A DNA stretch of 22,712 nt from a virus: the IMG/VR virus record IMGVR_UViG_3300044911_001361, positions 1 through 22,712 of that record. One strand, 5' to 3'. Both the position numbers and the translations under genes were made by a program. Positions 1 to 12,367 of this stretch are shown piece after piece (within the stretch, counting starts at the first letter, position 1; each line of letters begins with the position of its first letter). The notes under the pieces were generated by a model. That model worked only from the letters and a program-made list of their open reading frames with translations, had not been told where the DNA came from and made no database searches.

Positions 1-902
1 ACAAAGAATTAAAAGGAATAAGAAATACTTATTATCCTGAGGCAAAAGGTTTAATTATTGCCAACACGATTGAAGATGCTAAAAGTATTTTTAGTAATCT
101 ACAAAATCAAAATATAAGCTGTTCTATTATTACAAGTGACGCGGATTCAACTACCGAAACAATAAAAGAATTTAGAAATAATAATAAGCATTGGGTTGTG
201 ACTGTTCAAATGGTTTCTGAAGGAGTAAACATTCCTCAAATACGTGTTATCCTGTATTTAAACAATATTACAACCAGGACATACTTTGAACAAGTAATGG
301 GTAGAGGTGTAAGAAATTGCAAGGTTTATCAAAATGCAATAGACCATTGCTATTTTTATTATCCTAATTTTTCTTTATTTACTGAGGTTGCAGAAACTCT
401 TGAAGCAGGCTATAAGCATTTTGTAATAGACGAAAATAAAAGGATTAATACTGGACTAAGTGAAGGTTTAGAAAGAAAACCTAAAACAATACAAACTTTA
501 TTCGACGATATAATAGCTGGAAATCATGGTATTATAAACAATGGATATAAGTTTACTGACCAAGAAATAGATGCTTTAAACCAAGTCAAAGATTTAAACT
601 ATGCTTTAGCAAGTATTTTTGAAAATATGATTGCAAGGAATATTCAGAAAGATGAACCTCAGGAAAACAATAAAATAGATGAAATTCCTAAGTACGAAAA
701 AATCAAACTTGTAAAAAAGGAAATTCACAAAAGAGTTGGATATGCTATAAGGTTAGGTATTTACACTGAGTATCAAAACGCTCATTATAAATACAATGAA
801 GCTGCAAATATTAAGGATCATAAAACTTGTATGGACTTAAGATTATTAAATAAAAAATTACAAATCATTAACGATGACATCAGCAATTTCACTAAGCACT
901 AA
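1..902 (+). CDS. SF2 DEAD/DEAH-type helicase, C-terminal part (5' end outside window)
   Basis: The reading frame is open from base 3 with no stop, so the gene begins before the window. The visible part is a RecA-like helicase C-terminal domain. The strand reading LIIANTIEDAK is followed by a motif V-like stretch, VSEGVNIPQIRVILYL, and a motif VI-like QVMGRGVR with the arginine finger region. This arrangement is typical of phage and type III restriction-like SF2 helicases that unwind or translocate on DNA. About 190 residues follow motif VI, rich in Lys, Glu and Asn, with no recognised domain. It overlaps the next gene by 29 nt, which suggests translational coupling at the start of the replication block. 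A restriction-type motor cannot be excluded because motifs I and II are outside the window. Confidence 0.85.
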   Translation, partial: KELKGIRNTYYPEAKGLIIANTIEDAKSIFSNLQNQNISCSIITSDADSTTETIKEFRNNNKHWVVTVQMVSEGVNIPQIRVILYLNNITTRTYFEQVMGRGVRNCKVYQNAIDHCYFYYPNFSLFTEVAETLEAGYKHFVIDENKRINTGLSEGLERKPKTIQTLFDDIIAGNHGIINNGYKFTDQEIDALNQVKDLNYALASIFENMIARNIQKDEPQENNKIDEIPKYEKIKLVKKEIHKRVGYAIRLGIYTEYQNAHYKYNEAANIKDHKTCMDLRLLNKKLQIINDDISNFTKH

Positions 903-1479
903 TCCAGAGGAAGTTTACAATAAACTTATTGACATAAATGGTATAAACAGTTTTGGTTTAGCCATGACCTATTTTGATTCTTTATATTCATTTAAAGACT
1001 TTTGGAGTAACAGACACCCTTATGGTTTGTCTCCTAAAACTTTTACAACTTATGTAGAATTTGCAAGGTACGAAGTGCCCTGGGGATTAGGCTGGGACAT
1101 TGATGTTATAAAAGCACATTGTAAGCGAAAACCTAATATTTGGCAGGAACATGAAGAACAAATTAATGCAATGCCTAAACACGGCATTAATCAACACAAT
1201 AAAGGAGGTTATATATCACCTCCTCAAATTGATAAAGGTACTTCAAGACAATACCAAATTCAACGCCTTAAACGTGATGCCCCTGACATTGCCACTAAGG
1301 TAATTAACCGTGAAATAAGCGCAAAGCAAGGCATGGAAATAGCTGGGTTAAAAGATAGAACAGTTGTTGTAAAATGCAAGGCTGAAGATTTTGTAACTAA
1401 GGCAATAAATAATCTTGAAATTAATCAGATTGAAAAATTAGTGCAAGACCTTACTTTATACCTGAAGGAAATGAAATAA
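874..1479 (+). CDS. conserved phage protein, possible DNA-binding
   Basis: A 201-aa protein of unknown function. The middle (residues about 120-160) holds GTSRQYQIQRLKRDAP followed by a KV(I)NREISAKQGMEIAGLK-like stretch. From memory, this 'TS-Y-RLKRDAP…GE(I/L)SA…A' pattern recurs in proteins of cyanobacterial and Bacteroidota phages, and it resembles a helix-turn-helix segment of ParB/KorB-like proteins. The N-terminal half is Tyr/Phe/Trp-rich, with no recognised fold. The start overlaps the helicase end by 29 nt. The structured RNA with its terminator begins 18 nt after the stop, so this is the last gene before a regulated boundary. The DNA-binding role is inferred from the motif only. Confidence 0.75.
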   Translation: MTSAISLSTNPEEVYNKLIDINGINSFGLAMTYFDSLYSFKDFWSNRHPYGLSPKTFTTYVEFARYEVPWGLGWDIDVIKAHCKRKPNIWQEHEEQINAMPKHGINQHNKGGYISPPQIDKGTSRQYQIQRLKRDAPDIATKVINREISAKQGMEIAGLKDRTVVVKCKAEDFVTKAINNLEINQIEKLVQDLTLYLKEMK

Positions 1480-1497
1480 ATTCTTTATCTTTAATCA

Positions 1498-1594
1498 TTC
1501 TTTTGAACGAGGTGCAAGTCATTCAAAAGAACTTCGGGACAATATCCGCATTGTTTCATCTAACCCAGTAGCCTTGCACCTGCTGGGTTTTTTT
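1498..1594 (+). ncRNA. three-hairpin structured RNA with predicted kissing loops, leader of the replication initiator
   Basis: Three hairpins sit nearly end to end. HP1 is 1498-1507 (TTCTTTTGAA) paired with 1522-1531 (TTCAAAAGAA), a perfect 10-bp stem with a 14-nt loop. HP2 is 1536-1543 with 1550-1557, 8 bp including two G-U pairs and a 6-nt loop. HP3 is 1562-1570 with 1581-1589, 9 bp with one G-U pair and a 10-nt loop, followed by a run of T. The HP1 loop contains GGTGCAAG (1511-1518) and the HP3 loop contains CTTGCACC (1573-1580); these are exact complements, so the loops can kiss. Linkers between hairpins are only 4 nt. HP3 with its T run is an intrinsic terminator 8 nt before the ATG of the replication initiator. 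An attenuator, a copy-number-type regulator or a small RNA are all possible. I did not recognise a known RNA family. Confidence 0.7.
1562..1594 (+). terminator. intrinsic terminator (third hairpin of the structured RNA)
   Basis: The stem AACCCAGTA/TGCTGGGTT encloses a 10-nt loop and is followed by seven T (1588-1594). It would end transcripts of the helicase block and stands 8 nt before the ATG at 1603. The replication initiator is therefore expressed either by read-through or from a promoter inside the structured RNA region. The loop pairs with the first hairpin's loop, which could modulate termination. Confidence 0.75.
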
Positions 1595-1602: not shown

Positions 1603-2556
1603 ATGATAAACATTGATACAAGACTTTTGCCGCAGGTGACGCCTGACCAGTTGTTTCTCCTTTGTCACATTGTAAATTTTATGAATGAAAACCGTATGTG
1701 TTTCCCTTCAAACAAAAAATTGATTGAACAATCTGGATTCAGCGATTCAAAGATTTTACGGGTTAAAAATGAATTGGTAACACGGAAAATTATAAGCGTA
1801 AAACAACGCTTTAGACCTGATGGAAGCCAAACAAGTAACCTTTATAAGATTACCACGGAGTTAATCGGCGTATTTGTAACGGGTAAAAATATGTCAAATT
1901 TGGATACCTCCCCCTTTAATGATGAAGAGGGGGGGATATTCATCCATGAAGGGGGGACGCCTTCACCAATGAAGCCCCTTGAAGTATTAGCCAATTCAAG
2001 TATTAACCATATTCAAGTATTAGTTGAAAATCCTTCAGATTTTACCGACTTTACAAAAGTTTCAAATGATTTTCCAAATGTCCAAACCCCCAAAGTAAAC
2101 CCCTTTACCGTTGTTGCTAAGTTGCAAAGTGAAAAAGAAAATGAAAAAAGTTCCGCGAAAAAAGAAAAAGAAAAGACGCCCTCCCCCACTTACGCCGCCT
2201 TCACCGTGTTTTGCCAAACGTTTGAATCCTTATCCGGTGCCGCGTATCCCACGGATCAAAATGGACATTATATTATGATGCCCAAAGATGCAGGGCAAAT
2301 GGGAAATCTCCTGAAATACATTGACAAAATAGACAGGCAGGGCGATAGCCTTGAGGCATTGAAGGTGTTTATACAAGCCGCGTGGAACTTGAATGACAAA
2401 TGGCTGAGGGCAAATTTCACCATAGCAAACATTTATGGACAAGCCTCAAAGATATTTACGGCATACCAAACGACAAGCCCAGCGGCAAAGGACAAAGCGT
2501 ATAATGACAGGCTTCAAGAATTGCTTGCCGAAAGGATGGCAAAGTTTCAAGATTAA
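1603..2556 (+). CDS. winged-helix replication initiator-like protein
   Basis: A 317-aa protein. Residues about 10-85 look like the winged helix-turn-helix of phage replication proteins of the lambda O / RepA / helix_turn_helix_36 kind: QVTPDQLFLLCHIVNF, CFPSNKKLIEQSGFSDSKI (recognition helix), then VTRKIISVKQRFRPDGSQ (wing). A low-complexity linker (about 100-200, ending in a Lys/Glu-rich KEKEKTPSP stretch) leads to a C-terminal domain (about 200-300) of unknown fold, possibly the replisome contact. The linker DNA has G runs and spaced ATGAAG repeats like an origin inside an initiator gene. The following gene, 14 nt downstream, looks like its partner. The leader is the structured RNA ending in a terminator. 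Family placement is good; the exact function is inference. Confidence 0.7.
   Translation: MINIDTRLLPQVTPDQLFLLCHIVNFMNENRMCFPSNKKLIEQSGFSDSKILRVKNELVTRKIISVKQRFRPDGSQTSNLYKITTELIGVFVTGKNMSNLDTSPFNDEEGGIFIHEGGTPSPMKPLEVLANSSINHIQVLVENPSDFTDFTKVSNDFPNVQTPKVNPFTVVAKLQSEKENEKSSAKKEKEKTPSPTYAAFTVFCQTFESLSGAAYPTDQNGHYIMMPKDAGQMGNLLKYIDKIDRQGDSLEALKVFIQAAWNLNDKWLRANFTIANIYGQASKIFTAYQTTSPAAKDKAYNDRLQELLAERMAKFQD
1922..1974 (+). other. candidate replication origin tract inside the initiator gene
   Basis: Three ATGAAG words start at 1922, 1946 and 1969, spaced 24 and 23 bp, and the first two lead into G runs of 7 (1929-1935) and 6 (1951-1956). The tract lies in the linker-coding part of the initiator-like gene, the position where lambdoid phages keep origin iterons. 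The repeats are short and imperfect, so this is only a candidate; a codon-level explanation (Glu-Gly-Gly linker) is possible. Confidence 0.25.
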
Positions 2557-2570
2557 AAAACCAACCAATT

Positions 2571-3308
2571 ATGAACAACTTACCAATGATTGCCAATCGC
2601 GTGGAAGAAAAGATACAAGACGTGCAGCTTGTTATCCAGAACCGCGAATTAAGGATTTTTAAAACGGGAACAAAGGAAGCCATCCCGAAGATTGCCCAAA
2701 CCTTAAGCCACTTGCTCCCCGTGTATGGCATTGAGCCAAAGCCCGAACACTTGATGGAGGTCACCGACTTTATTTCAAATTACAAGTTACTTGCCGTTGA
2801 TGAGATTAAACTTGCTTTTGAAAAGTTTGCAAAACAAGAACTTGATATTAATGACCATAAATTTTACGGCAAAGTTGACCTTCATGCGATTGGAAGAATC
2901 CTGACCGCGTACATTACCTGGAGGCAAAAGATATATTTCGCGATGGATTCCGATATTCAAGCGAAGAAGGAAGAAGAGGATCGGATTAAACGCCTGGGCA
3001 AAGTTGCTGAGGAATACGATAAGGACTTTGATAACAAGTTGAAAAACTTTCAAAAGCCGCTGGAAGAAATACCCGTATTTTGGTACGACGAATGTGTGAA
3101 GCGTGGTTATATCAACGAATGGAAGGAAGGCGAAAAGGAAGCCTTGTGGCTTGAGGCTCAGGAAATGGCAAAGCAGGAAAAGCCTGATTCCGACAATATG
3201 ATTGATCGCAAGAACCACATGAGAAAAATTGAGGAAGGAAATATGCCACGGGCCCGCGCACTTGCTTACAAGTTAGCCGTCTGGCGCAAGGTGTTATTAA
3301 GAGATTAA
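2571..3308 (+). CDS. unknown protein next to initiator, possible helicase loader
   Basis: A 245-aa, highly charged, mostly helical protein with no signal or membrane segment. Residues about 60-125 contain FISNYKLLAVDEIKLAFEKF and then YGKVDLHAIGRILTAYI. From memory, this combination occurs in proteins paired with wHTH initiators in Bacteroidota phages. The central Lys/Glu-rich stretch (about 125-160) may form a coiled coil. Position directly after the initiator suggests a role like DnaC or lambda P in loading the replicative helicase, but no AAA+ Walker motifs are visible, so that assignment rests on context. The start is 14 nt after the initiator stop. Confidence 0.65.
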   Translation: MNNLPMIANRVEEKIQDVQLVIQNRELRIFKTGTKEAIPKIAQTLSHLLPVYGIEPKPEHLMEVTDFISNYKLLAVDEIKLAFEKFAKQELDINDHKFYGKVDLHAIGRILTAYITWRQKIYFAMDSDIQAKKEEEDRIKRLGKVAEEYDKDFDNKLKNFQKPLEEIPVFWYDECVKRGYINEWKEGEKEALWLEAQEMAKQEKPDSDNMIDRKNHMRKIEEGNMPRARALAYKLAVWRKVLLRD

Positions 3309-3317
3309 AAAAATAAT

Positions 3318-3542
3318 ATGAAAAAAGCATTAATTTATTACGCAGTCATTGATAATGAATGTAACGGAAATTCTTTTATTTTAAATTCCAATGAATGTTT
3401 GCCAAAAGAACTTTGTGGAGATTCTGATTGGTATTTTAATGTAAAAACAAAAATGTTTTGTAGATTTTTTACTCATCACCATGAAATTTATGGTTTACAA
3501 AAAGAATATGAGGAAATAAAAGGACATTTATTGAAGGAATAA
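3318..3542 (+). CDS. small hypothetical protein
   Basis: A 74-aa soluble protein rich in aromatic residues and His (…FCRFFTHHHEIYG…), with four cysteines spread through the chain but no zinc-finger spacing. It is AT-richer than the two genes before it. It starts 9 nt after the preceding stop and is followed by a clear terminator, so it ends the initiator operon. I do not recognise a family. Confidence 0.6.
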   Translation: MKKALIYYAVIDNECNGNSFILNSNECLPKELCGDSDWYFNVKTKMFCRFFTHHHEIYGLQKEYEEIKGHLLKE

Positions 3543-3566
3543 GTTTCATAATTTGGTTTTGTTTTG

Positions 3567-3599
3567 GTGGGGTATAGAAATTATACCTCACTTTTTTTT
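3567..3599 (+). terminator. intrinsic terminator
   Basis: The 10-bp stem GTGGGGTATA/TATACCTCAC (one G-U pair) has a GAAAT loop and is followed by eight T (3592-3599). It closes the initiator operon and insulates the promoter-like repeat that starts 4 nt later. Confidence 0.85.
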
Positions 3600-3603
3600 A
3601 ATT

Positions 3604-3660
3604 TATTTTTGTAAATATTTTTTTATTCAAATAATTATATTTAAATTTACGTATTGAAAA
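3604..3660 (+). promoter_or_regulatory. promoter-like repeated element, copy 1 of 3
   Basis: This stretch aligns with 9095-9150 and 10428-10484. All three copies share TATT(T/A)TTG, then GTAAATATTTTTTT, an AT-rich middle, then AAATTTACGTATTGAAAA. The distance from the G of TTG to the G of TTACG is 40 bp in every copy. TATTTTTG fits the Bacteroidota -7 consensus TAnnTTTG. GTAAAT and ATTTAC form an inverted repeat spanning 40 bp, which suggests an operator. Which element is the actual -7 box is not settled by sequence. Confidence 0.65.
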
Positions 3661-3678
3661 TAACAAAAGCCAATTATC

Positions 3679-3897
3679 ATGATGACAATGAATGAATTAA
3701 AAAACCACTTTGACAAGGTTCACGAATTAGTAGCCGATGCAGCATTTGTAAAAACTGTTTATCACGCGGTAAAATCTCAGGGTTGCACCGATGAAGAATG
3801 GGAGGCAAACAAAATGCCAATAGTTGCAAGAATGGCAAACGAGTATCTAAACAAGTTAGACCAGGATATTAAAAAAGTTCAAGAATCATGGAGCTAA
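3679..3897 (+). CDS. small hypothetical protein in an isolated expression cassette (1 of 3)
   Basis: A 72-aa, helical, slightly acidic protein (FDKVHELVADAAFV…CTDEEWEANKM…) with no recognised family. Two ATGs are possible; the second, at 3682, reads ATGACAA and matches the start of the other two genes behind the same promoter-like repeat, so 3682 may be the true start. The gene stands alone: a terminator and the repeat lie upstream, and a terminator overlaps its last codons. The insulated, independently driven layout suggests a product needed at its own time or dose, for example a host-takeover or anti-defence factor; that is inference. Confidence 0.7.
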   Translation: MMTMNELKNHFDKVHELVADAAFVKTVYHAVKSQGCTDEEWEANKMPIVARMANEYLNKLDQDIKKVQESWS

Positions 3898-3910
3898 CAA
3901 CTCCATTTTT
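3888..3910 (+). terminator. probable intrinsic terminator overlapping the gene end
   Basis: The stem ATGGAG/CTCCAT (6 bp) has a 7-nt loop that contains the TAA stop codon of the preceding gene, followed by TTTTT. The stem is short, but it directly precedes a T run and makes the upstream gene monocistronic. Confidence 0.55.
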
Positions 3911-3931
3911 CCACCTTCAAAAACTTACCAA

Positions 3932-4195
3932 ATGAATATTACAAAATACACCTGCAAATGTACCCTTGATAAAAAGCTGGGTCACTTTGTACACGTTATC
4001 TTCTCCCACGGCTTCGGATTGTACGGGCAAACGTCGCCGCATTCGCCTGAAGATAACATGGAGATTCACGGCTGGACATTTGAGCCGCATGACATTGACC
4101 TTGAATTATATCCACAAATCAACAGTCGAAACCTCATGCCTCTTGTTGCTGAGAACGAAATGGACTGGACAATTTTAACAAATCAATCACTTTAA
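3932..4195 (+). CDS. small hypothetical protein
   Basis: An 87-aa soluble protein with a CKC pair near residue 10 and several His and aromatic residues (FVHVIFSHGFGLYG, PHSPEDNMEIHGWTFEPHD). No family was recognised. It starts 34 nt after the previous gene and 21 nt after that gene's probable terminator; no separate promoter was identified. A 12-nt gap separates it from the next gene. Confidence 0.6.
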   Translation: MNITKYTCKCTLDKKLGHFVHVIFSHGFGLYGQTSPHSPEDNMEIHGWTFEPHDIDLELYPQINSRNLMPLVAENEMDWTILTNQSL

Positions 4196-4207
4196 AAACA
4201 AACCAAA

Positions 4208-4558
4208 ATGGAAAACATTGAAAGCACTTTTACAAACAACGCTCTTACCCGTTATTACGAGGAACGCATCGTGTATCTTGAAGGCGAAAACGAAAGATTA
4301 AGAAACGAGGCTCGCGCCGACTTTTGGATTGTTCTTGATTTTTGGATTTACTCTCAAAGAATGATTCAGGCTTATGTTAGTTGGCATAATGAAGCGAAGC
4401 ACGATCATTACCTTGATTGTATAAAAACGATGCTTGAAACATTGGAGGCTCATGAAACAAGGGTTTTGGATACTGCGATTAATAAACTAAGAATTGAAGT
4501 TATTGCTTGTTGCAAAATCGCGATTATTAAATGCCAACAAATAACCGAATCAAGATGA
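4208..4558 (+). CDS. hypothetical helical protein
   Basis: A 116-aa protein that begins with a likely coiled coil (TRYYEERIVYLEGENERLRNEAR) and continues as amphipathic helix, with two Cys in IACCKI near the end. No catalytic motif was seen. Its TGA overlaps the ATG of the next gene (ATGA), so the two are probably translationally coupled. Confidence 0.65.
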   Translation: MENIESTFTNNALTRYYEERIVYLEGENERLRNEARADFWIVLDFWIYSQRMIQAYVSWHNEAKHDHYLDCIKTMLETLEAHETRVLDTAINKLRIEVIACCKIAIIKCQQITESR

Positions 4559-4815
4559 TTAATATACAAGACTTCGCGCTCAATGCCTCATTAAGCATTT
4601 GTCCCAACCATATCGTTGAACCAAAGCACTTGCAAAAATGGTGGAGGCAAAGGGGAGTCGGTGAACTTGAAAAATACTTTTACACAGGAAATAAGATTAG
4701 TTACGCTCAGGAAATAGACTGGAAGGCAATAAGTGACCACAAAAAACAAATGTGGTACGATTCTCAAAATTTTCAAATTCAAGCAGGAAATGAATATTCT
4801 AAAAGGCAAGGTTAA
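4555..4815 (+). CDS. small hypothetical protein
   Basis: An 86-aa product when started at 4555, where ATG overlaps the preceding TGA as ATGA; an in-frame ATG at 4531 would add eight residues but deepen the overlap. The sequence is basic and Trp-rich (LQKWWRQRGVGELEKYF, DWKAISDHKKQMWY). No family was recognised. The end overlaps the SSB-like gene by 26 nt, so it belongs to the same transcription unit, perhaps as a DNA-metabolism accessory. Confidence 0.6.
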   Translation: MINIQDFALNASLSICPNHIVEPKHLQKWWRQRGVGELEKYFYTGNKISYAQEIDWKAISDHKKQMWYDSQNFQIQAGNEYSKRQG

Positions 4816-5248
4816 ATACACGGCGGGCAAAGTGTTTGAGGGTCAATACGGACCATCCATTAACGCCGCAATTACATTGGATAACGGTACGGACATCCGC
4901 GTTTACGGAAAACCAGACGATACAAAGTTAATGGCTTTGAAAAAAGACGACACCGTTACCATCATTCACGACGGCAAAAGTTACAAGGTCGCATTTGACA
5001 TGGTCACAGCCGACGAAATACCTGAAAAGGTACAAACACCCACCGAAGGCGCGAACGTGCAGCAGGCGGCAAATGTACCCCCTAAAAGCAACGGTAAGCT
5101 AACACATGATGAAATCACGGAAAAGGCGACGTTAATGACTTCGGTTTATGCTGACATATTTCACCAGTTGCAAGCATCAGGCTTAGAACCTGCCCAGGCG
5201 CAACCTGCCGCCGCCACGATCTTTATTCAAATCGGAAAATATTTTTAA
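4790..5248 (+). CDS. OB-fold protein, possible phage single-stranded DNA-binding protein
   Basis: The product is 152 aa from the ATG at 4790, chosen because it is preceded by AGGAA and starts directly at the first strand MNILKGKVKYTAGKVFEGQY; an upstream in-frame ATG at 4733 would add 19 unlikely residues. Residues 1-65 alternate as five short strands (SINAAITLDNGTDIRVYGKP, TVTIIHDGKSYKV), which fits an OB fold. A Pro/Gln/Ala-rich linker (about 75-100) leads to a helical C-terminal domain (LTHDEITEKATLMTSVYADI). Neighbouring replication genes and the downstream exonuclease make ssDNA binding plausible. The acidic C-terminal tip of bacterial SSBs is absent. A terminator follows. Confidence 0.55.
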   Translation: MNILKGKVKYTAGKVFEGQYGPSINAAITLDNGTDIRVYGKPDDTKLMALKKDDTVTIIHDGKSYKVAFDMVTADEIPEKVQTPTEGANVQQAANVPPKSNGKLTHDEITEKATLMTSVYADIFHQLQASGLEPAQAQPAAATIFIQIGKYF

Positions 5249-5266
5249 TCAATTTGGTACGTTTTT

Positions 5267-5294
5267 CCCCAGCCTGAAAAATGGCTGGGGTTTT
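5267..5294 (+). terminator. intrinsic terminator
   Basis: A perfect 8-bp GC-rich stem, CCCCAGCC/GGCTGGGG, has an 8-nt loop and is followed by TTTT. It lies 18 nt after the stop of the OB-fold gene. The T run is short, so read-through into the next genes is possible. Confidence 0.75.
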
Positions 5295-5317
5295 ACCGCG
5301 CCGCAAAAACAAAAAAA

Positions 5318-5536
5318 ATGAACGACAAATATTTAGAAAGAGCATTAGATAATATATCGACTGAAATTAATGATATTTTTATTATGCTTAAACAAAAAAT
5401 TGAAGAACTTGAAAATGATTTGATTGAATTAGAAGAGCAGCATGAACAATCTTTAAAAGTTGCTTTTGAAAAAGGTTACGAAGAAGGTGTTAAATATACC
5501 GACGGACTTATTAAAGACGAAAAATTCCCATTTTAA
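5318..5536 (+). CDS. small coiled-coil protein (paralogue of the next gene)
   Basis: A 72-aa acidic protein, largely coiled coil (MLKQKIEELENDLIELEEQH). Its C-terminal part, AFEKGYEEGVKY, resembles AFEKGYIQGAKEW in the following gene, which suggests a tandem duplication with divergence. The N-terminus MNDKYLERA also resembles the coiled-coil protein at 8555. It is AT-rich with an A-rich leader. No function is recognised. Confidence 0.65.
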   Translation: MNDKYLERALDNISTEINDIFIMLKQKIEELENDLIELEEQHEQSLKVAFEKGYEEGVKYTDGLIKDEKFPF

Positions 5537-5549
5537 AAACAAAAGAACC

Positions 5550-5846
5550 ATGGAAAACCAAGAAGAAAAAGAAACGTCGTTGGAATACTTTTACGATAAG
5601 GTATTGGACGCCTCCGAGTTTTACGAAAGCGAATACAAAGCCATTGTCGATGCTTTGAATGAGGCAAAGAAAATGTATGCTGAGGAAATTGCTAAGGCAT
5701 TTGAAAAGGGTTATATACAAGGGGCTAAGGAGTGGCTTGAACCATTTAAAAAACAAATATGGGAAGGTGCAAAAAATAGATATTTAAAGGAACAAAAGGA
5801 ACAATATGATTATGAAACAAAATTACGTCTTAATATAAATAAATAA
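5550..5846 (+). CDS. small charged helical protein (paralogue of previous gene)
   Basis: A 98-aa product from the ATG at 5550, 13 nt after the previous stop and behind an A-rich leader; in-frame sequence further upstream overlaps the preceding gene and is not needed. It is strongly charged and helical, with AKAFEKGYIQGAKEWLEPF shared in outline with the gene before it. No catalytic or binding motif is visible. It ends 8 nt before the exonuclease gene, so the two are probably cotranscribed. Confidence 0.65.
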   Translation: MENQEEKETSLEYFYDKVLDASEFYESEYKAIVDALNEAKKMYAEEIAKAFEKGYIQGAKEWLEPFKKQIWEGAKNRYLKEQKEQYDYETKLRLNINK

Positions 5847-5854
5847 TATTAACC

Positions 5855-6457
5855 ATGCTCCTTCCAAAAAAATATATATCAGTCAGCCAAATCAACCTTT
5901 GGTACAGTGACCGTCAAAAGTACATTAATCGTTACTTTTTAAACCTTCCTGAAGAACCATCCATTTACATGGATTTTGGCAAGCGCTTTGCCGAGGATAC
6001 GGAGGCGTTTATCAAAAATGGTATAATCATGGAAACCTTTCCCGATTTTTACATTGATAAAATACAAGGCTTCAAAGGGCTTGAAGCTGAGAAACCAATA
6101 AGCCTGAGTATTAATGACATTCAAGTCGTTGGATACATTGACGCATGGGACAGGGAGAACAACCGCGTTATTGACTTTAAAACCTCAGGAAGACCGTGGA
6201 CAATGGAGACCTTGAAAACAAGCCTTCAAATGAAAGTGTACGCCCTGGCAATGTTTGTAAATGGGGAAACAATTCCCGAAAGTCAAATCAACTGGCTGGG
6301 GACAAAGATGACGAAAAACGGCTTATCTTTTACCGGTGAAAGTTATGAATTAAACCATACCTTTGAAATGGATGACTTACTCAAAGCCATTGTTTTAATT
6401 GAGCAGACTTGCAAGCAGATAAGCGAGGTTTACAAAAGTTTTTTACATACCCATTAA
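5855..6457 (+). CDS. PD-(D/E)XK superfamily exonuclease (RecB/Cas4-like)
   Basis: A 200-aa protein with the core motifs of the PD-(D/E)XK nuclease fold in order: an early Glu in FGKRFAEDTEAF (E47), GYIDAWD (D96), VIDFKTS (D107, K109), and the QMKVYALA motif (Q125, Y129) typical of the RecB/AddB/Cas4 clade. The length matches single-domain phage exonucleases. No iron-sulphur cysteine set is seen: the only cysteine is near the C-terminus, so it is not a typical Cas4. The likely role is processing of DNA ends for phage recombination or replication, together with the OB-fold protein upstream. An EssC-like fusion or toxin role is not supported. Confidence 0.85.
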   Translation: MLLPKKYISVSQINLWYSDRQKYINRYFLNLPEEPSIYMDFGKRFAEDTEAFIKNGIIMETFPDFYIDKIQGFKGLEAEKPISLSINDIQVVGYIDAWDRENNRVIDFKTSGRPWTMETLKTSLQMKVYALAMFVNGETIPESQINWLGTKMTKNGLSFTGESYELNHTFEMDDLLKAIVLIEQTCKQISEVYKSFLHTH

Positions 6458-6458
6458 A

Positions 6459-6827
6459 ATGGAAGTTATGACCGACGATTTGGAAAATGAATTGAAAAAG
6501 ATAATGAAATCAGATACAAGGGGACTGAGGTTCAACGATGAAAAAATCAGATACGACCTTATTCCCCCGTTGGCTAACCGTGAATGCGCCAAAGTTTGGA
6601 CGAAGGGTTTGGACAAATATCCAGCTGGCAACTGGGAAAAGGGAATGCCGTGGAGCGAGGTGATTGCCTCCGCCTTACGTCACCTTGAAGCCATTCGCCT
6701 CGGTGAGGACATTGACCAGGAAAGCGGTTGTTTGCACGCGGCGCACTTGCAATGCAACGCTCAGATGTTGACTGAATATTTTTACACAAAAAAGGAATTT
6801 GATAACCGTAAAAAATACGACAAATGA
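6459..6827 (+). CDS. dATP/dGTP diphosphohydrolase-like protein (DUF5664, MazZ-type)
   Basis: A 122-aa protein that matches the DUF5664 pattern closely: RFNDEKIRYDLIPPLANREC, KGLDKYPAGNWEKGMPW, ASALRHLEAIRLGEDIDQES, and HAAHLQCNAQML. This family contains MazZ-like all-alpha nucleotide pyrophosphohydrolases, which convert dGTP or dATP to the monophosphate. The acidic and His residues in the RHLEAIRLGEDID part probably hold the metal. In some phages MazZ supplies dGMP for 2-aminoadenine DNA, but PurZ and DatZ are not in this window, so pool control is the safer reading. It starts 1 nt after the exonuclease and overlaps the next gene by ATGA. Confidence 0.8.
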   Translation: MEVMTDDLENELKKIMKSDTRGLRFNDEKIRYDLIPPLANRECAKVWTKGLDKYPAGNWEKGMPWSEVIASALRHLEAIRLGEDIDQESGCLHAAHLQCNAQMLTEYFYTKKEFDNRKKYDK

Positions 6828-7045
6828 AAATAAAAACGGCAGTTGAAATTTTAGAAACAAGTTTACTTGGCATTGTTTCTTTTGATTCAGAAGTACTAAG
6901 AGATAAATACAAAGAGCGTTTTAAAATTGCCAAACAAATAGAAAAGGAACAACACGAAATTACTTTTAATGAAGCACTTGACGAAAATTCAAATCGTTGG
7001 TTTGAAAAATATTACAACGAAACTTTTAAAAACGAAACAAAATGA
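6824..7045 (+). CDS. small hypothetical protein
   Basis: A 73-aa, charged, helical protein (AKQIEKEQHEITFNEALDE). From memory, its 'A-QIEKEQ-…' segment resembles small proteins common in Bacteroidota phages. It is linked on both sides by ATGA stop-start overlaps, which points to coupled translation. It is AT-rich compared with the DUF5664 gene. The function is unknown. Confidence 0.65.
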   Translation: MKIKTAVEILETSLLGIVSFDSEVLRDKYKERFKIAKQIEKEQHEITFNEALDENSNRWFEKYYNETFKNETK

Positions 7046-7052
7046 TTTTAAC
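7025..7052 (+). repeat. 28-bp direct repeat, copy 1
   Basis: The 28 bases here are identical to 7507-7534. Each copy covers an A-rich leader (AACGAAACAAA) plus the first codons (ATGATTTTAAC) of a gene: the 89-aa small protein here and the dCTP deaminase at the second copy. The 482-bp unit between them holds the two paralogous small genes and could be lost or gained by recombination. Confidence 0.85.
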
Positions 7053-7311
7053 AGCCAAAGAAGAAGCAAAAGAATTAGTTGGACTATTCTATATGACAAT
7101 GCCTAACGACACTTTGATTCATGAGCCTTTAGGAGAATTTCAAGAAATTTTTGCGGCTTTAAACCATGCTAAACAATGTGCTTTGATTGCAGTTGATAAG
7201 ATACTACAAATTTTTAATAACGAATGGACAAAATTAGATTTTTGGACAGAAGAAATAAACGGAACAATTAATTTTTGGTTAGAAGTTAAACAAGAAATAG
7301 AAAAATTATGA
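7042..7311 (+). CDS. small conserved phage protein, paralogue A
   Basis: An 89-aa protein. It shares with the next gene the outline TAKxEAxEL … CALxAVxxIL … DFWxEVKxExxKL. From memory, this arrangement is widespread among small proteins of Bacteroidota phages ('AKECALIAVDEIL … YWQEVKQEI'). The function is unknown. It is coupled to its neighbours by ATGA overlaps at both ends. The leader and first codons (MILT) are identical in DNA to those of the dCTP deaminase gene downstream. Confidence 0.75.
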   Translation: MILTAKEEAKELVGLFYMTMPNDTLIHEPLGEFQEIFAALNHAKQCALIAVDKILQIFNNEWTKLDFWTEEINGTINFWLEVKQEIEKL

Positions 7312-7511
7312 AACAAACAGCAAAACAAAAAGCAGAAGAATTGTTCAATAAAATGGATATGATAATTTACACTGACCAAGACAACGCAGATAGTCAATGT
7401 ATTAGATGTGCGTTAGTTGCAGTTGCTGAAATATTAAATGTAATATGGAATACTGATATTGATGAATATGATTTTTGGCAAGAAGTAAAAGAGGAACTTC
7501 TAAAACTTTAA
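7308..7511 (+). CDS. small conserved phage protein, paralogue B
   Basis: A 67-aa protein with the same outline as the preceding gene (TAKQKAEELFNKM…CALVAVAEILNV…DFWQEVKEELLKL) but about 20 residues shorter in the middle. The two lie in tandem and overlap by ATGA, so a local duplication with divergence is likely. It ends within the second copy of a 28-bp direct repeat that also forms the start of the dCTP deaminase gene. The function is unknown. Confidence 0.75.
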   Translation: MKQTAKQKAEELFNKMDMIIYTDQDNADSQCIRCALVAVAEILNVIWNTDIDEYDFWQEVKEELLKL

Positions 7512-7534
7512 AAACGAAACAAAATGATTTTAAC
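7507..7534 (+). repeat. 28-bp direct repeat, copy 2
   Basis: Identical to 7025-7052. This copy spans the end of the second small paralogue, the A-rich leader, and the first codons of the dCTP deaminase gene. Confidence 0.85.
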
Positions 7535-8057
7535 CGACAAGACAATTAATGACGAAATTAACGAAGGTAACATCGTTATAGAGCCTTTTATTCCTGAGAA
7601 CCTTGGCACCAACTCGTATGATTTGACCTTGTCAAATACTTTGGTGCTTTACACGGAGCGCGTGTTGGATGTGCGCAAGAAAAACCCATCCGCACCAATC
7701 ATTATTCCAGATGAAGGGATAATTCTGCAACCTGGCATTGTTTACCTTGCATCAACGGTGGAATACACGGAGACGTTGAAACACGTGCCAATCATTCAAG
7801 GCAAATCAAGTCTCGGGAGGCTTGGTTTATTCGTCCACGTGACAGCAGGATTTGGCGACGTTGGATTCAAGGGACATTGGACGTTGGAGCTTTTGACGGT
7901 TCAACCGCTGAAGATTTACGCGGGAATGAAAATTGCTCAGCTGACTTACCAGGACATAAGCGAGATGCCAAATGTGTCGTATGATAAAAAGCAAGACGCA
8001 AAGTATTCGAATCAAGGCAAAGATCCAGTAGCTTCTAAAAACTATCTTAATAAATAG
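7524..8057 (+). CDS. dcd: dCTP deaminase, probably bifunctional (DCD-DUT type)
   Basis: A 177-aa protein of the dCTP deaminase/dUTPase trimer fold. It has GTNSYDLTLSN (about 28-38), GKSSLGRLGL (93-102), HVTAGFGDVGFKGHWTLEL (105-123) with the catalytic Glu at 122, GMKIAQL (134-140), and a C-terminal arm KYSNQGKDPVASKNY that closes over the substrate. The GKSSLGRLGL/TAGF-D-GF-GH-TLEL combination is closer to the mycobacterial bifunctional enzyme, which turns dCTP into dUMP directly, than to E. coli Dcd with its TRSSLARLGL; bifunctionality is inferred from this. It feeds dUMP for dTTP synthesis in an AT-rich phage and pairs with the pyrophosphohydrolase upstream. The start lies inside a 28-bp repeat. 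Confidence 0.9.
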   Translation: MILTDKTINDEINEGNIVIEPFIPENLGTNSYDLTLSNTLVLYTERVLDVRKKNPSAPIIIPDEGIILQPGIVYLASTVEYTETLKHVPIIQGKSSLGRLGLFVHVTAGFGDVGFKGHWTLELLTVQPLKIYAGMKIAQLTYQDISEMPNVSYDKKQDAKYSNQGKDPVASKNYLNK

Positions 8058-8060
8058 CCT

Positions 8061-8312
8061 ATGACCGAAGAAGAAAGGGAAAAGCAAAGGGCGTATGACC
8101 GCGAATATTATAGAAAAATGTTACCTTTTCAAAAGGATAAAAGAAGGGAGGCAACACGGCTCAGGAATAAGGACAATTATTGGAAGTTGACGGACGAACA
8201 AAGGCAAATAAGAAAAGACAAAAGTCTTGCTTATTATTATGCGAACATTGAAGCATTGAAAATTAAAGCAAAAGCCTATCGAGAACGAAAATTAAAAAGT
8301 AAATATGAGTGA
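8061..8312 (+). CDS. small basic helical protein, paralogue A
   Basis: An 83-aa, extremely charged, basic protein (REKQRAYDREYYRKM, FQKDKRREATRLRNKDNYW, KAKAYRERKLK). It is similar in outline to the next gene: acidic start, YYR-M, KEKRR. Such Arg/Lys/Tyr-rich helices resemble the spacer helices next to HNH nuclease domains and may bind nucleic acid, but no nuclease motif is present. It starts 3 nt after the deaminase stop and overlaps the next gene by 8 nt. Confidence 0.65.
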   Translation: MTEEEREKQRAYDREYYRKMLPFQKDKRREATRLRNKDNYWKLTDEQRQIRKDKSLAYYYANIEALKIKAKAYRERKLKSKYE

Positions 8313-8562
8313 AGAAGAAAAGAAAGCCCGAAAATCGGAATACATGAAGGCATATTATAGAAATATGTCCGAATACCACAAAGAGAAAAGGCGCTTAAGA
8401 AATTTAGAAACCAAAAAAATAAGGTATTACAAAAACAAGGTGGAAAAGCCTGAGTTATTATATGACAAACACAAAAGATTTAGGCTTAAAAATGCTGAAA
8501 AGATAAAAGCCTATCAAAAAGAATATCGTTTAAAACAAAAAGAAAAGAAAAATCATGAATGA
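8305..8562 (+). CDS. small basic helical protein, paralogue B
   Basis: An 85-aa basic protein with the same plan as the preceding gene (SEEEKKARKSEYMKAYYRNM, HKEKRRLRNLETKK, ending KIKAYQKEYRLKQKEKKN). The pair is probably a tandem duplication. It has no Cys or His cluster and no catalytic motif. It overlaps both neighbours by 8 nt. Nucleic-acid binding is guessed from charge only. Confidence 0.65.
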   Translation: MSEEEKKARKSEYMKAYYRNMSEYHKEKRRLRNLETKKIRYYKNKVEKPELLYDKHKRFRLKNAEKIKAYQKEYRLKQKEKKNHE

Positions 8563-8749
8563 TAAGAATTTACAAAGGAAAGCGTATGATTTATATGCCG
8601 ATGCCAAAGAAGTAATTGATAATTTGATTGAAAAAATTGATAATTTAGAAGACGATATGAATGTTTTAGACACAGAAATTGAAAAAATGTCTGATAGAAT
8701 TATTGAACTTGAAGACCATATTTTAAATTTAGAAAAAGAAAAAAAATGA
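8555..8749 (+). CDS. small coiled-coil protein
   Basis: A 64-aa protein, almost wholly coiled coil (LIEKIDNLEDDMNVLDTEIE, RIIELEDHILNLEKEKK), acidic and AT-rich. The N-terminus MNDKNLQRKAYD resembles MNDKYLERALDN of the gene at 5318, which suggests shared origin. Its stop overlaps the next start (ATGA). With the membrane protein that follows it resembles the coiled-coil/membrane pairing seen in some phage spanin or lysis-control sets, but this is weak. Confidence 0.6.
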   Translation: MNDKNLQRKAYDLYADAKEVIDNLIEKIDNLEDDMNVLDTEIEKMSDRIIELEDHILNLEKEKK

Positions 8750-8874
8750 TTACTGAAAGAGAAAAACAAAAATTGATTAAAGATGCCGCCAGCATCTTCG
8801 TTGCAGCTGGAGGTATTATTACCTTGGCTTTCGCCATTTACTTTATTTTTGACCTTATAAAAAAATGGTACTGA
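8746..8874 (+). CDS. 42-aa single-pass membrane protein
   Basis: A short frame opened by ATG at 8746 (overlapping the previous TGA) and closed by TGA at 8872. The product has a charged N-terminus (MITEREKQKLIKDA), one hydrophobic segment (SIFVAAGGIITLAFAIYFIF, about residues 16-35) and a basic tail (DLIKKWY). The tight ATGA coupling on both sides and the clear membrane segment support a real gene. The charge pattern suggests a small membrane effector or anchor; function unknown. Confidence 0.6.
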   Translation: MITEREKQKLIKDAASIFVAAGGIITLAFAIYFIFDLIKKWY

Positions 8875-9020
8875 TGAAATACGAAATAAAGTACAATGAC
8901 AAAAGAATGATCATTGAAGCCGAAAGCGTTGAAAAGGCGCTTGAGCAATTCAAGGAATTAAAAATTGACGTGAAAAACTTTGAGATTAGTATTTCAAAGT
9001 TTGGCGAGTACAGGAAATAA
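8874..9020 (+). CDS. 48-aa hypothetical protein
   Basis: This frame starts with an ATG that shares one base with the previous TGA (TGATG). The product begins MKYEIKYNDKRMIIEAESVE and ends SISKFGEYRK; it reads as a beta-hairpin followed by a helix and strand, a compact fold common among tiny phage proteins. It is the last gene before a strong terminator, and its position and coupling support it being real. The function is unknown. Confidence 0.6.
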   Translation: MKYEIKYNDKRMIIEAESVEKALEQFKELKIDVKNFEISISKFGEYRK

Positions 9021-9056
9021 AGTGTAAGTAGTAAGTTGTTAAAAGTGTTCTAATTC

Positions 9057-9090
9057 ATGTCCGCGTTTTTCGATGCGGACATTTTTTTTT
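9057..9090 (+). terminator. intrinsic terminator
   Basis: A perfect 8-bp stem ATGTCCGC/GCGGACAT with a 10-nt loop runs into nine T (9082-9090). It ends the nucleotide-metabolism block and insulates the second promoter-like repeat, which begins at 9095. Confidence 0.9.
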
Positions 9091-9094
9091 ATTT

Positions 9095-9150
9095 TATTAT
9101 TGTAAATATTTTTTTATTCAAATAAATAATATTAAATTTACGTATTGAAA
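9095..9150 (+). promoter_or_regulatory. promoter-like repeated element, copy 2 of 3
   Basis: This copy has TATTATTG, one mismatch to TAnnTTTG, then the shared GTAAATATTTTTTT (9102-9115) and AAATTTACGTATTGAAA (9134-9150), with the same 40-bp spacing as the other copies. The ATG of the gene it would drive begins 29 bp after the conserved G of TTACG. Confidence 0.65.
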
Positions 9151-9170
9151 AAAAAACAAAAACAAAACAA

Positions 9171-9506
9171 ATGACAACTTTAGCAAAAACAACAGAAAAC
9201 AACGCAAAAGTAAAAGCACTTAAAAAAATAGCTGAGACTAAATGGACTGGAACAACTATTCACACAAATTTAGATGCTTGTTTAACAGGAATAAATTTAG
9301 ATAGTACAAATTCAGGATGGTATAAACCATCGGCATCAAGAATAGATGGATTAACTGGTATTTTTATGATAAATCAAGATGGTTCAATTTTTTGCGAAGC
9401 AAGAGTTATAAAAATAAGCGAAAAAGAATATAAAATAGAATATATGACAATGGCAGGATGGAACGAATTTGAAAATCTTTTTCATCAATTTATGGATGAA
9501 AACTAA
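9171..9506 (+). CDS. hypothetical protein in an isolated expression cassette (2 of 3)
   Basis: A 111-aa protein starting ATGACAA. The N-terminal third is basic and helical (NNAKVKALKKIAETKW); the rest looks beta-rich (GIFMINQDGSIFCEARVIKI, YKIEYMTMAGWNEFENLF). No family is recognised and it shares no sequence with the products of the other two cassettes. It lies alone between a strong terminator plus promoter-like repeat and a downstream hairpin terminator. The independent expression hints at a specific early function, not known. Confidence 0.7.
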   Translation: MTTLAKTTENNAKVKALKKIAETKWTGTTIHTNLDACLTGINLDSTNSGWYKPSASRIDGLTGIFMINQDGSIFCEARVIKISEKEYKIEYMTMAGWNEFENLFHQFMDEN

Positions 9507-9520
9507 AAATAAAAAAAAAC

Positions 9521-9543
9521 AAGAGGGGGTAAACTCCCTCTTT
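9521..9543 (+). terminator. probable intrinsic terminator
   Basis: The 7-bp stem AAGAGGG/CCCTCTT encloses an 8-nt loop and is followed only by TATTATTT, so the T run is interrupted. It makes the preceding gene monocistronic, with some read-through possible. Confidence 0.6.
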
Positions 9544-9571
9544 ATTATTTACCAGTTTAAAAACCATTTTT

Positions 9572-10414
9572 ATGAAAGACAAAATCATTGATTACGTACC
9601 TCAGAACAAACGCCTCCCGTACCAAGTTGCCGCAGGCGTTGGCGTTGCCTTCGTTGTTGGGTTGATTTATTCCCCAATAAATACCCAGTACCATTATACT
9701 TCCTTCGTGCCAGTCATTGAGCGCGACACGGTGTATGTTCACAAAATAACCACGCTTACTTTTCCTGCAAAGGAAGAAAAAGGCGAAGTAAATGAAATGG
9801 CTTATGGCTCAAGGTCATACGGTTGGGAGATAAGGAAAATGAATATTCATGAATTAAGAAAAAACCTTGAAGGCAAAGGATTCAGAAATCTTGATAAAAT
9901 TGACCTTTTTAAAATTCGTCGTATATGGCTGGCGTATTCTTATGAATCCATGTTGATGAATGTACATCATTTAACCGATTTCCCCGTATCCATGATTTAT
10001 TCCTTTTTCATCATTGAGGCGACGACCTCAGGGGTTGAAACCGAACTTTGGAGAAAACACGCGAACGCTGGGGGTGTGAAGGCTTTGAAAAATCAAAAGT
10101 CGGTGACGTACAAAACACGGGAGGTCATTCGCGGACGTGACAAATACATACGCGCCAAATTTATGAGCGCAAGCACCACGGAAGAAGGCATGAAACTTTG
10201 GGCAGGTGTTTTGAACTCAGGAAGATACGCGGAATGTAAAAAGGCAAATTACAAGATGAAAGGCATACGGTTGTACGAATCCATTTGTAAGTGCGTTTAC
10301 AAAAGCGGGTATCACACGGATCGAGATTACAAGTTTCGCGCTTCGCTTATGGCTGAGTTCTGGGAGTTGAAAAAGAACCATTACCCATTGAAAGGGAAAA
10401 GAGATGAATTTTAA
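9572..10414 (+). CDS. membrane-anchored glucosaminidase-like protein (GH73 type)
   Basis: A 280-aa protein. One hydrophobic segment at about 18-34 (VAAGVGVAFVVGLIY), after a short charged start and without a clear cleavage site, suggests a signal anchor with the rest outside the cytoplasm. Residues about 135-265 follow the GH73 plan: PVSMIYSFFIIEATTSG with candidate catalytic Glu149, LWRKHANAGGVKA in place of the usual NN-FGIK, a FMSASTTEEGMKLWAGVL helix, and GYHTDRDYKFRASLM like the family's GYATDPDYAxKL ending. GH73 enzymes cut the glycan strand of peptidoglycan. It is unusual to find it in the early half, far from the amidase and holin. It could act in lysis or in cell-wall remodelling. 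The domain call is by pattern only. Confidence 0.65.
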   Translation: MKDKIIDYVPQNKRLPYQVAAGVGVAFVVGLIYSPINTQYHYTSFVPVIERDTVYVHKITTLTFPAKEEKGEVNEMAYGSRSYGWEIRKMNIHELRKNLEGKGFRNLDKIDLFKIRRIWLAYSYESMLMNVHHLTDFPVSMIYSFFIIEATTSGVETELWRKHANAGGVKALKNQKSVTYKTREVIRGRDKYIRAKFMSASTTEEGMKLWAGVLNSGRYAECKKANYKMKGIRLYESICKCVYKSGYHTDRDYKFRASLMAEFWELKKNHYPLKGKRDEF

Positions 10415-10427
10415 ATTATTTTGCATT

Positions 10428-10484
10428 TATTTTTGTAAATATTTTTTTGTTTCAATATTTAATATTAAATTTACGTATTGAAAA
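10428..10484 (+). promoter_or_regulatory. promoter-like repeated element, copy 3 of 3
   Basis: It has TATTTTTG (10428-10435), GTAAATATTTTTTT, and AAATTTACGTATTGAAAA, with the same 40-bp internal spacing as copies 1 and 2. No terminator hairpin was seen between the preceding gene and this copy, unlike the other two. The TTG at 10478 is part of the repeat and is unlikely to be a start codon. Confidence 0.65.
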
Positions 10485-10504
10485 AAAACAAAAACGTATC
10501 AATC

Positions 10505-10723
10505 ATGACAAACGAAATGCAATCTTGGAGATTTTTATACACTAAACATTTAAGTGTAAAGCAAGCCGTAACAAAAACAGGCGCATTGAAAGAAGGCAGA
10601 AATAGTAAATGTTCTTTTATTGTAACCGATGGCAAAGATTATTCTGAATGCTTAATGAAGGCAGTACAGGAATGTAAGTTTAATGAAAACCAATTAGTAG
10701 GCGCAAGAAAAGTAAATTATTAA
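10505..10723 (+). CDS. small hypothetical protein in an isolated expression cassette (3 of 3)
   Basis: The start is the ATG at 10505 (ATGACAA), 30 bp after the conserved G of the repeat, matching the other two cassettes; an in-frame TTG nine codons upstream lies inside the repeat and is rejected. The product is 72 aa and basic (WRFLYTKHLSVKQAVTKTG, DGKDYSECLMKAVQECKF), probably alpha/beta, with three Cys. No family is recognised. A strong terminator follows 9 nt after the stop, so the gene is monocistronic. Confidence 0.7.
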   Translation: MTNEMQSWRFLYTKHLSVKQAVTKTGALKEGRNSKCSFIVTDGKDYSECLMKAVQECKFNENQLVGARKVNY

Positions 10724-10732
10724 TTACCTCAC

Positions 10733-10763
10733 AGGGCAGCTCCCCCAGCTGCCCTAATTTTTT
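10733..10763 (+). terminator. intrinsic terminator
   Basis: A perfect 9-bp GC-rich stem AGGGCAGCT/AGCTGCCCT with a CCCCC loop is followed by AA and a run of T (10758-10763). It is one of the strongest terminators in the window. Confidence 0.9.
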
Positions 10764-10786
10764 ACACACAACAAAAACAAAACCAA

Positions 10787-11335
10787 ATGGAAAAGAATTT
10801 TAACAACCTTCAATTCAAATGGACATTCGAAAGTATTTCGGATAACATTCCAACCATCATGCTTTTAACAATCGTTTTAACGTATGGCATTAACGCCTAC
10901 CTAACCGCCATTTTTCTCCCCATTGACTTTTGGCTTGCGATCATTGCCGCCAGTATCTTGCAACTCGGACGCTTCGCCGTGGTTTTCATGGACTTCTTGA
11001 ATCCAACCAAAGGGCGAAGCACATACCCACCAAAGATTGCCCTGGGCGCGACACTTGTCGCCTTGGTTGAAATCTTTTTCGGCTTGCAGGAAAAGTACGA
11101 AGGCGGCGAATTTATCACAATGTTTTTATTCGTTGGCACCATCGTTGTTTTCGGTTACCTCCTTGAAATCAACTTTGTTGACAAGGGCGTTGAAGCATAC
11201 GGTATCAATGTACCTGAGCCAAAGCCAAAGCGCAAAAGGAAACCACGCGTAAAGGTTGAGGCAAAAGAAAACAATGAAACCACGGGAACAACGGCAAAAA
11301 ACTTTGTATCTTCATTTAAAACAATAACACTTTGA
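10787..11335 (+). CDS. multi-pass membrane protein of unknown function
   Basis: A 182-aa protein with about four hydrophobic segments (about 24-46, 47-68, 84-99 and 109-128), a pair of which is joined by a loop with LNPTKGRSTYPPK. A very basic cytoplasmic-type tail follows (EPKPKPKRKRKPRVKV). A domain of this kind recurs, from memory, in Bacteroidota phages without known function. The stop overlaps the TTG start of the RuvC-like gene, which indicates coupling. An S-type holin or superinfection-exclusion role would fit topology, but there is no direct evidence. Confidence 0.65.
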   Translation: MEKNFNNLQFKWTFESISDNIPTIMLLTIVLTYGINAYLTAIFLPIDFWLAIIAASILQLGRFAVVFMDFLNPTKGRSTYPPKIALGATLVALVEIFFGLQEKYEGGEFITMFLFVGTIVVFGYLLEINFVDKGVEAYGINVPEPKPKRKRKPRVKVEAKENNETTGTTAKNFVSSFKTITL

Positions 11336-11808
11336 GGACACTGATAGGCGTTGACCCAGCGTTAAGAATAAAGGGAATGGCGGTTTGCATTATTGCAGAC
11401 CGCACCATGATTTTTAAAAGGTATAAAAGGTTTGTCGATTTTATCGGCGACGTTATAACCTGGGTGACATACGAAAACCCCATTGTTTTAGTGGAAGATT
11501 CAAGCCTCCAGAATGTGACCTTTAATAATTCAATCAACCGCGCGATCCTTTCTCGAATGTCCCGCAACGTTGGCATGAATCAAGCCTCTTCCAGGATTGC
11601 TTATGAATGGATAAAGGAACATGACATTGAAGCCTATAATATTAGCCCTGAAGCAAAGGGTAAAAAGTTTAATAAAGACGTCTTTATGCGAGTTGTCGCA
11701 AGTGAGCGATTGAAATTTGAACCAGATTTTAAACCCGCCAAAATAAGTCAAGATGAAATCGACGCTTTCTTTCTTGCGCTTATGGCAAAAAATTATATCA
11801 AAAGATGA
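11332..11808 (+). CDS. RuvC-like Holliday junction resolvase (RNase H fold), TTG start
   Basis: A 158-aa protein with the acidic residues of the RuvC/RNase H fold in order: GVDPALRIKGMAV (D8), LVEDSS (E55), and KISQDEIDAFFLALMA (D141 and D144). It would cleave branched DNA during recombination or before packaging. The start is taken as TTG at 11332, overlapping the TGA of the membrane-protein gene as TTGA; no ATG lies upstream of the first strand TLIGVD, and a later Met (residue 16) would remove the catalytic D8. Length fits small phage resolvases. The next gene is coupled by ATGA. Confidence 0.8.
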   Translation: MRTLIGVDPALRIKGMAVCIIADRTMIFKRYKRFVDFIGDVITWVTYENPIVLVEDSSLQNVTFNNSINRAILSRMSRNVGMNQASSRIAYEWIKEHDIEAYNISPEAKGKKFNKDVFMRVVASERLKFEPDFKPAKISQDEIDAFFLALMAKNYIKR

Positions 11809-12047: not shown

Positions 12048-12048
12048 G

Positions 12049-12333: not shown

Positions 12334-12367
12334 TTACTAATTTGTTGAATTGTTGATGTGTATATCG

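Follow-up and report, generated by a model that had tools for sequence, protein, structure and literature searches.

A strongly covarying phage RNA family, apparently unnamed, heads replication-region genes in the virus DNA described here and in its relatives among uncultured bacterial viruses. Sequence comparison establishes its structure, a helix between two of its hairpin loops, a promoter box in front of it, a terminator-like hairpin at its end, its place in the replication region, and loops that differ from copy to copy. A regulatory role of the family is likely, and the RNA probably represents a new type of switch that turns replication of the virus on and off or sets its dosage. We think it fairly likely that it acts as a terminated leader RNA with its own promoter, in which the loop-loop helix sets the read-through into replication operons.

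The window, that is, the whole stretch of DNA analysed, is a 22.7-kb virus record with forward genes up to ~12.3 kb, followed by a reverse block that carries portal, head protease, and endolysin genes. On the forward strand, 1498–1594 folds into three hairpins separated by 4-nt linkers (1532–1535 and 1558–1561; Table 1), as a preliminary description of this DNA had stated. The minimum free energy is −31.1 kcal/mol, against −18.6 ± 3.2 for shuffled sequences (z = −3.87; 0 of 200 as low). That description had also reported an 8-nt match between loops 1 and 3. The two are indeed exact reverse complements, but eight base pairs do not form with the hairpins whole: C1580 closes hairpin 3 with G1571, so the eighth pair competes and the usable loop-loop helix is 7 bp (1512–1518 with 1573–1579). 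The first gene behind the RNA encodes an initiator that matches HTH_36 (E = 2.5e-10) and the replication initiation protein family phrog_270 (E = 9.1e-12).

Table 1. Features of the RNA and its surroundings (window coordinates unless a locus is given).
Feature	Position	Strand	Basis or remark
−7 promoter box TATCTTTA	1486–1493	+	Bacteroidota type TAnnTTTG; final base A here
Predicted RNA 5' end (hairpin 1)	start 1498	+	distance from promoter box
Hairpin 1, 10 bp	1498–1531	+	1498–1507/1522–1531; fold
Upper 2 bp of hairpin 1	1509–1510/1519–1520	+	above a C·A mismatch; fold
Loop 1 GGTGCAAG	1511–1518	+	7-nt pairing core 1512–1518 conserved
Hairpin 2, 8 bp	1536–1557	+	1536–1543/1550–1557; fold
Hairpin 3, 10 bp, terminator-like stem	1562–1589	+	1562–1571/1580–1589; fold
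Loop 3 CTTGCACC, complementary to loop 1	1573–1580	+	core 1573–1579
T run 3' of hairpin 3	1588–1594	+	sequence; terminator-like site
Winged-helix replication initiator, first gene 3' of the RNA	1603–2556	+	ATG at 1603
Gene after the initiator, 245 aa, no assigned function	2571–3308	+	RNA-independent anchor
Last gene of the upstream gene group	874–1479	+	putative operon member by gene order and strand
Second copy, loop core GCACTAC	L002:1357–1452	+	2,537 bp upstream of the window-identical copy

Homologues were collected in several ways. A protein search with the initiator gave 53 viral loci, and in many of them the same hairpins lie directly 5' of initiators with different N-termini. A scan for the hairpin 1 pattern added further loci from among the matches listed, which constitute the sample; five loop types among the listed pattern matches (L099, L066, L151, L150, and L142) were dropped as chance. 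The first alignment held 28 of 34 distinct RNAs, six near-identical ones being left out. Covariance model R1, which describes the three hairpins without loop-loop pairing, was applied to the window and to the loci collected up to then, and model R2 was built from 67 matches. Three proteins led to another 125 loci: the upstream methyltransferase, the ParB-like methylase, and the product of the gene that follows the initiator. Of these loci 75 were searched with R2, the rest being other stretches of covered records or near-duplicates. Matches in L238 and L239 are cut by contig ends and were left unscored. Extra model matches on the opposite strand mostly overlap real copies because hairpin 1 is near-palindromic.

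The first RNA set had been pre-filtered for loop matching and therefore proves little by itself; the unbiased test is provided by members taken by the model alone. The loops match in 21 of 22 distinct members of the first such batch and in 23/23 of a later one. The exception, L086:6756, is a weak hit (E = 0.021) that fell out under the later threshold. In all 78 distinct RNAs from viral contigs, found with models that contain no loop pairing, loops 1 and 3 are perfectly complementary over 7 nt or more (exactly 7 in 56, 8–10 in 22). The RNAs represent 17 loop types, longer and shifted forms of one core being counted once, and when loops are swapped between types at least 7 nt can pair in 2.3% of 5236 pairs. 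A chance match of the loops is excluded, since homologues keep it.

The alignment of 76 distinct rows bears the helix out pair by pair. Two-sided changes occur in all seven loop-loop pairs, as well as in 9 of 12 pairs of hairpin 1, 6 of 8 of hairpin 2, and 9 of 9 modelled in hairpin 3; over the whole structure 529 cells carry such changes, against 142.7 ± 10.9 after shuffling. In this gapped alignment 96.6% of the cells of the loop-loop helix are paired. Sliding one partner by 1–3 columns lowers the share of paired cells from 95.6% to 38–49%. Single cases illustrate the pattern. L157:2686 and L309:3855 have only two differences, which are both partners of loop-loop pair 1, and L016:3802 and L083:6830 have six, of which four fall in the loop cores and the other two in hairpin 3. 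Both loops thus covary together upstream of winged-helix initiators, which is the support that the preliminary description had asked for. Faster evolution of the loops was considered and rejected: in 188 close pairs the loops change no faster than the stems (0.051 changes per site, against 0.045 in hairpin 1, 0.089 in hairpin 2, and 0.067 in hairpin 3).

Rfam 15 gave no match at gathering score for the whole window, and six loci with divergent copies returned tRNA only; in a permissive search of 1350–1750 the best hit had E = 0.31 and 23.4 bits against a cut-off of 60. The earlier statement that no named RNA family fits therefore holds for the window and these six loci. The same searches gave no match to the P4 CI/C4 immunity RNA, the phi29 pRNA, or the guanidine-II riboswitch, for each of which Rfam holds a model. 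Among the papers listed by literature searches none was recognised as describing this RNA; the motif sets of PMC8040213 and PMC2864571 lay outside the sequence comparison.

Tandem hairpins with intramolecular kissing resemble, in outline, the guanidine-II riboswitch as it is presented in the part of PMC7357161 that deals with it. The differences are considerable: at least seven variable pairs occur here instead of two, no loop letters are fixed, and the terminator-like hairpin is itself one kissing partner. A guanidine-II-like riboswitch is thus very improbable, as Rfam gave no match, 17 loop types leave no fixed pocket, and the downstream genes concern DNA replication and modification rather than one metabolite. 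A ligand, which had been suggested as a possible partner of this RNA, is likewise unlikely to read its loops, as their letters lack conservation.

A promoter box, TAnnTTT(G/A), ends 1–4 nt 5' of the model start in 88 of 88 distinct contexts (those with at least 40 nt of upstream sequence), with G in 63; it is found so in 3.3% of random locus stretches and 9.5% of shuffles. According to the promoter data given in PMC9723704, Flavobacterium psychrophilum has a TAnnTTTG box at −12 to −5, and the −33/−7 elements of F. johnsoniae are given as TTTG/TAnnTTTG in the corresponding part of PMC6847099. A box at −12 to −5 places the start belonging to 1486–1493 at 1498, which is the first paired base of hairpin 1.

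An intrinsic terminator had been described directly before the initiator. What is present is a terminator-like hairpin that is kept across homologues, and termination is predicted. The window holds 20 terminator-like sites including hairpin 3 with its T run, where shuffling predicts 10.6 ± 3.3. Taken alone, the match at hairpin 3 is therefore weak, and it is its conservation that carries weight. The T run is present in the aligned rows. Other terminator-like hairpins in the window, at 3566–3592, 9057–9082, 9521–9542, 10733–10755, and 12367–12390, lie within the forward block and at its end; they would matter if the leader acts on processivity. The distance from the RNA to the first long ATG frame 3' of it is 6–13 nt in 80 of the 88 contexts, 16–26 nt in seven, and 172 nt in one. 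A hairpin with a T run is therefore placed between promoter box and first gene, the arrangement of an attenuator leader as far as consensus matches define it.

This location also bears on a cis-acting element for processive antitermination, or for recruiting a protein, that would serve the long early gene block. The model for such an element is the HK022 put RNA. The RNA does stand directly after the promoter box of a ~10-kb forward block (1603–12333) with terminator-like sites inside it; it nevertheless ends in a terminator-like hairpin of its own and has no conserved loop sequence for contact with a protein or the polymerase, and we regard this reading as unlikely.

The genomic setting was surveyed with the gene after the initiator as anchor, which gave 73 loci. 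The RNA lies on the same strand in all 55 of those with more than 4 kb of upstream sequence, as one copy in 30 and two copies in 25 (some loci are near-duplicates). Among the 18 loci with at most 4 kb upstream it is found in eight and absent from ten, which have no more than 1,133 nt upstream. Searches of whole records, in two sets of 49, never gave more than two separate copies per record. Five of the first 49 lack the RNA (the records of L005, L009, L012, L053, and L054), and in these loci the initiator match is within ~120 nt of the contig end. The four without it in the second set are the records of L054, L257, L259, and L260; in the last three the ParB-like methylase has a relative at 76% identity, and the methylase therefore occurs without the RNA.

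The first gene 3' of the RNA varies. It may encode an initiator, of which several kinds occur, a helicase-HNH protein, an HNH endonuclease, a product of unknown function, or a ParB-like protein fused to an N6/N4 DNA methylase, and the initiators themselves match several different PHROG families. The link to the initiator drawn in the preliminary description is thus correct for the window, where the RNA adjoins the winged-helix initiator, but too narrow for the family, as one or two copies per record head several kinds of operon. Contigs that are nearly identical to the window carry a second copy, whose place falls just outside it (Table 1). This copy precedes a helicase-HNH gene, whose 3' part is window 1–902, and heads the gene group that ends with the 874–1479 gene.

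Because the RNA adjoins the initiator gene in the window, it might be asked whether the element works as DNA, with hairpins extruded at a replication origin by the initiator gene and an RNA fold that is incidental. We consider this improbable. G-U pairs are frequent in the stems, the distance to the promoter box is nearly fixed in 88/88 contexts, hairpin 3 is followed by the T run, other copies precede genes that are not initiators, and loops complementary to each other would make little sense in duplex DNA.

Somewhat greater weight, at a probability that we still put low, is given to a free-standing small RNA that acts on other phage or host RNAs, with the helix serving compactness, stability, or dimer formation and the gene behind it being leak-expressed. 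Promoter box and terminator-like hairpin bracket ~100 nt with almost no unpaired tails, as such an RNA would have. The start codon, however, follows within 6–13 nt in most contexts, the RNA keeps its upstream place in the replication region at all 55 anchored loci, and the loop letters vary while matching each other, which leaves no conserved sequence for target recognition. Nor does the window contain an excess of the RNA's loop 7-mers: the 7-mer core occurs 68 times, against 65.0 ± 8.5 under a fourth-order model. The 8-mer CTTGCACC with at most one mismatch occurs 32 times, against 12.9 in dinucleotide shuffles and 18.8 ± 4.7 under the fourth-order model, a count that includes two sites in the RNA itself; this excess was not taken as evidence of other loop targets in the window.

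In ColE1, loop kissing belongs to the antisense control of replication, and three hairpins with 7-nt loops recall its RNA I. Loop kissing in antisense control likewise governs replication-gene expression in I-complex plasmids, in what PMC10724649 reports of them. In the present RNA both loops are on the same strand of one leader. An opposite-strand promoter box (strict form, RNA plus 80 nt) is found in 3 of the 88 contexts, below the 11.7% of shuffles, so that on promoter-box evidence no counter-transcript is indicated. A plasmid-type system, in which a counter-transcript binds the leader loops, is accordingly highly unlikely, and the ColE1 analogy made at the outset finds no support.

From these features we infer transcription, termination, an effect of pairing on read-through, and a mode of action in cis or in trans for the terminated leader, which remains the preferred reading. 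Transcription from its own promoter, with a predicted start at 1498, would give a ~100-nt leader that ends at the hairpin 3 terminator. Most transcripts would stop there and yield a free three-hairpin RNA, and those that read through would continue into the initiator gene and the early genes that follow. The working part would be the conserved helix between loops 1 and 3, which would decide how frequently the polymerase reads through. This helix could form within the nascent leader, between the finished short RNA and a nascent leader, or in both ways.

A crude length estimate for the window RNA gives ~79 Å needed for intramolecular pairing against a linker reach of ~83 Å. By the same crude estimate the 73 three-hairpin members would require the opening of 0–5 bp if the helix is straight; these linker counts leave out 3 of 76 RNAs that have another minimum-energy fold. 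The idea that short linkers sterically exclude pairing in cis was withdrawn after this estimate, by which such pairing, with the stems complete, is barely possible and taut. As modelled, the lengths would fit cis (intramolecular) and trans pairing alike.

The nearest working analogues appear to be IsrK and the P4 CI RNA. In the outline given in PMC4825925, the IsrK leader of Gifsy-1 yields a short RNA or, by terminator read-through, an inactive mRNA, and the short form binds its read-through mRNA in trans; the P4 CI RNA pairs with two sites in the transcription unit that encodes it and thereby halts transcription of replication genes. The likeness to P4 CI RNA/SeqA and IsrK is that of a phage leader that gives a short terminated RNA, as would be the case here, and the short RNA may possibly act on its own leader as reported for these two. 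The differences are that here two hairpin loops pair inside one 100-nt unit and that one or two copies with different loops are present per phage. In the phi29 pRNA, too, a single RNA has two unlike hairpin loops that are complementary to each other; as far as it is treated in PMC7357161, its loops pair between molecules through 4 bp and it serves DNA packaging. The present RNA has at least 7 bp; it follows a promoter box, ends in a terminator-like hairpin, and precedes genes of the replication region.

Records with two copies add a further aspect. The loop cores of the two copies differ in 21 of 21 such records (each counted once), in two of them by one base. Upstream and downstream copies use nearly separate sets of loops, and for this reason the difference is no test of orthogonality. 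The longest cross match between the two copies averages 4.3 nt (range 3–7), similar to swapped pairs, and the 7-nt case lies partly in a stem. The differing loops fit separate addresses; statistical orthogonality is not claimed. Even a one-base difference could matter, because a single nucleotide change in the RNAI of IncK plasmids alters compatibility, as noted in the section of PMC10724649 on these plasmids.

A possible, more tentative extension of the terminated leader is a same-strand dosage sensor that recognises itself by private loop addresses. Finished RNAs would pair with nascent leaders, loop 3 with loop 1 or loop 1 with loop 3, and terminated RNA would accumulate with genome number until it shuts or opens the replication operon. 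If such addresses are real, one phage would hold two independent circuits, and the loop type would define an incompatibility or immunity group of related phages. The RNA would then regulate the dose of phage replication as a module whose loop address can be exchanged, and it could provide mutually independent RNA control parts for Bacteroidota.

The host phylum is suggested chiefly by the promoter. Phage and plasmid records contain no counterpart of the RNA; a single 21-nt match was put down to chance. Among named phages there is likewise no counterpart of the initiator, of the gene that follows it, or of the methyltransferase upstream. The ParB-like methylase matches 1177 phage records and the portal 141, all below 60% identity; four of the latter are Nonlabens phages. 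Since named phages are only distant relatives, the host phylum, likely Bacteroidota, rests mainly on the promoter type. In species genomes the strict hairpin 1 pattern, which covers the commonest stem type only and makes the cellular negative a partial one, hit one stretch of a Deltaproteobacteria MAG; neither model matched it, and it was set aside as chance.

Several observations concern the genes around the RNA. The initiators of the window, L024, L041, and L018 share ~180 C-terminal residues but differ in their N-terminal domains, a pattern that resembles exchange of the DNA-binding half between phages. The cassettes that follow the upstream copy seem interchangeable too: helicase-HNH at L002:1462–3877, a ParB-like DNA methylase at L041:1570–3394, and a ParB/GmrSD-like gene at L018:2747–3547. 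The RNA may mark recombination borders. In L018 before 3596, and in L019, L020, and L040, one RNA copy is found, and an ordinary terminator-like hairpin, GGCGCGGGT..ACCTGCGCC plus a T run, stands directly 5' of the initiator at the expected place of the second RNA. Farther downstream in the window, 7524–8057 is a dCTP deaminase-like gene (Pfam DCD, E = 2.5e-42), and 8061–8562 contains two adjacent small lysine/arginine-rich ORFs with similar starts, probably a tandem duplication. A related phage contig carries a tRNA gene at L306:11082–11156 (+).
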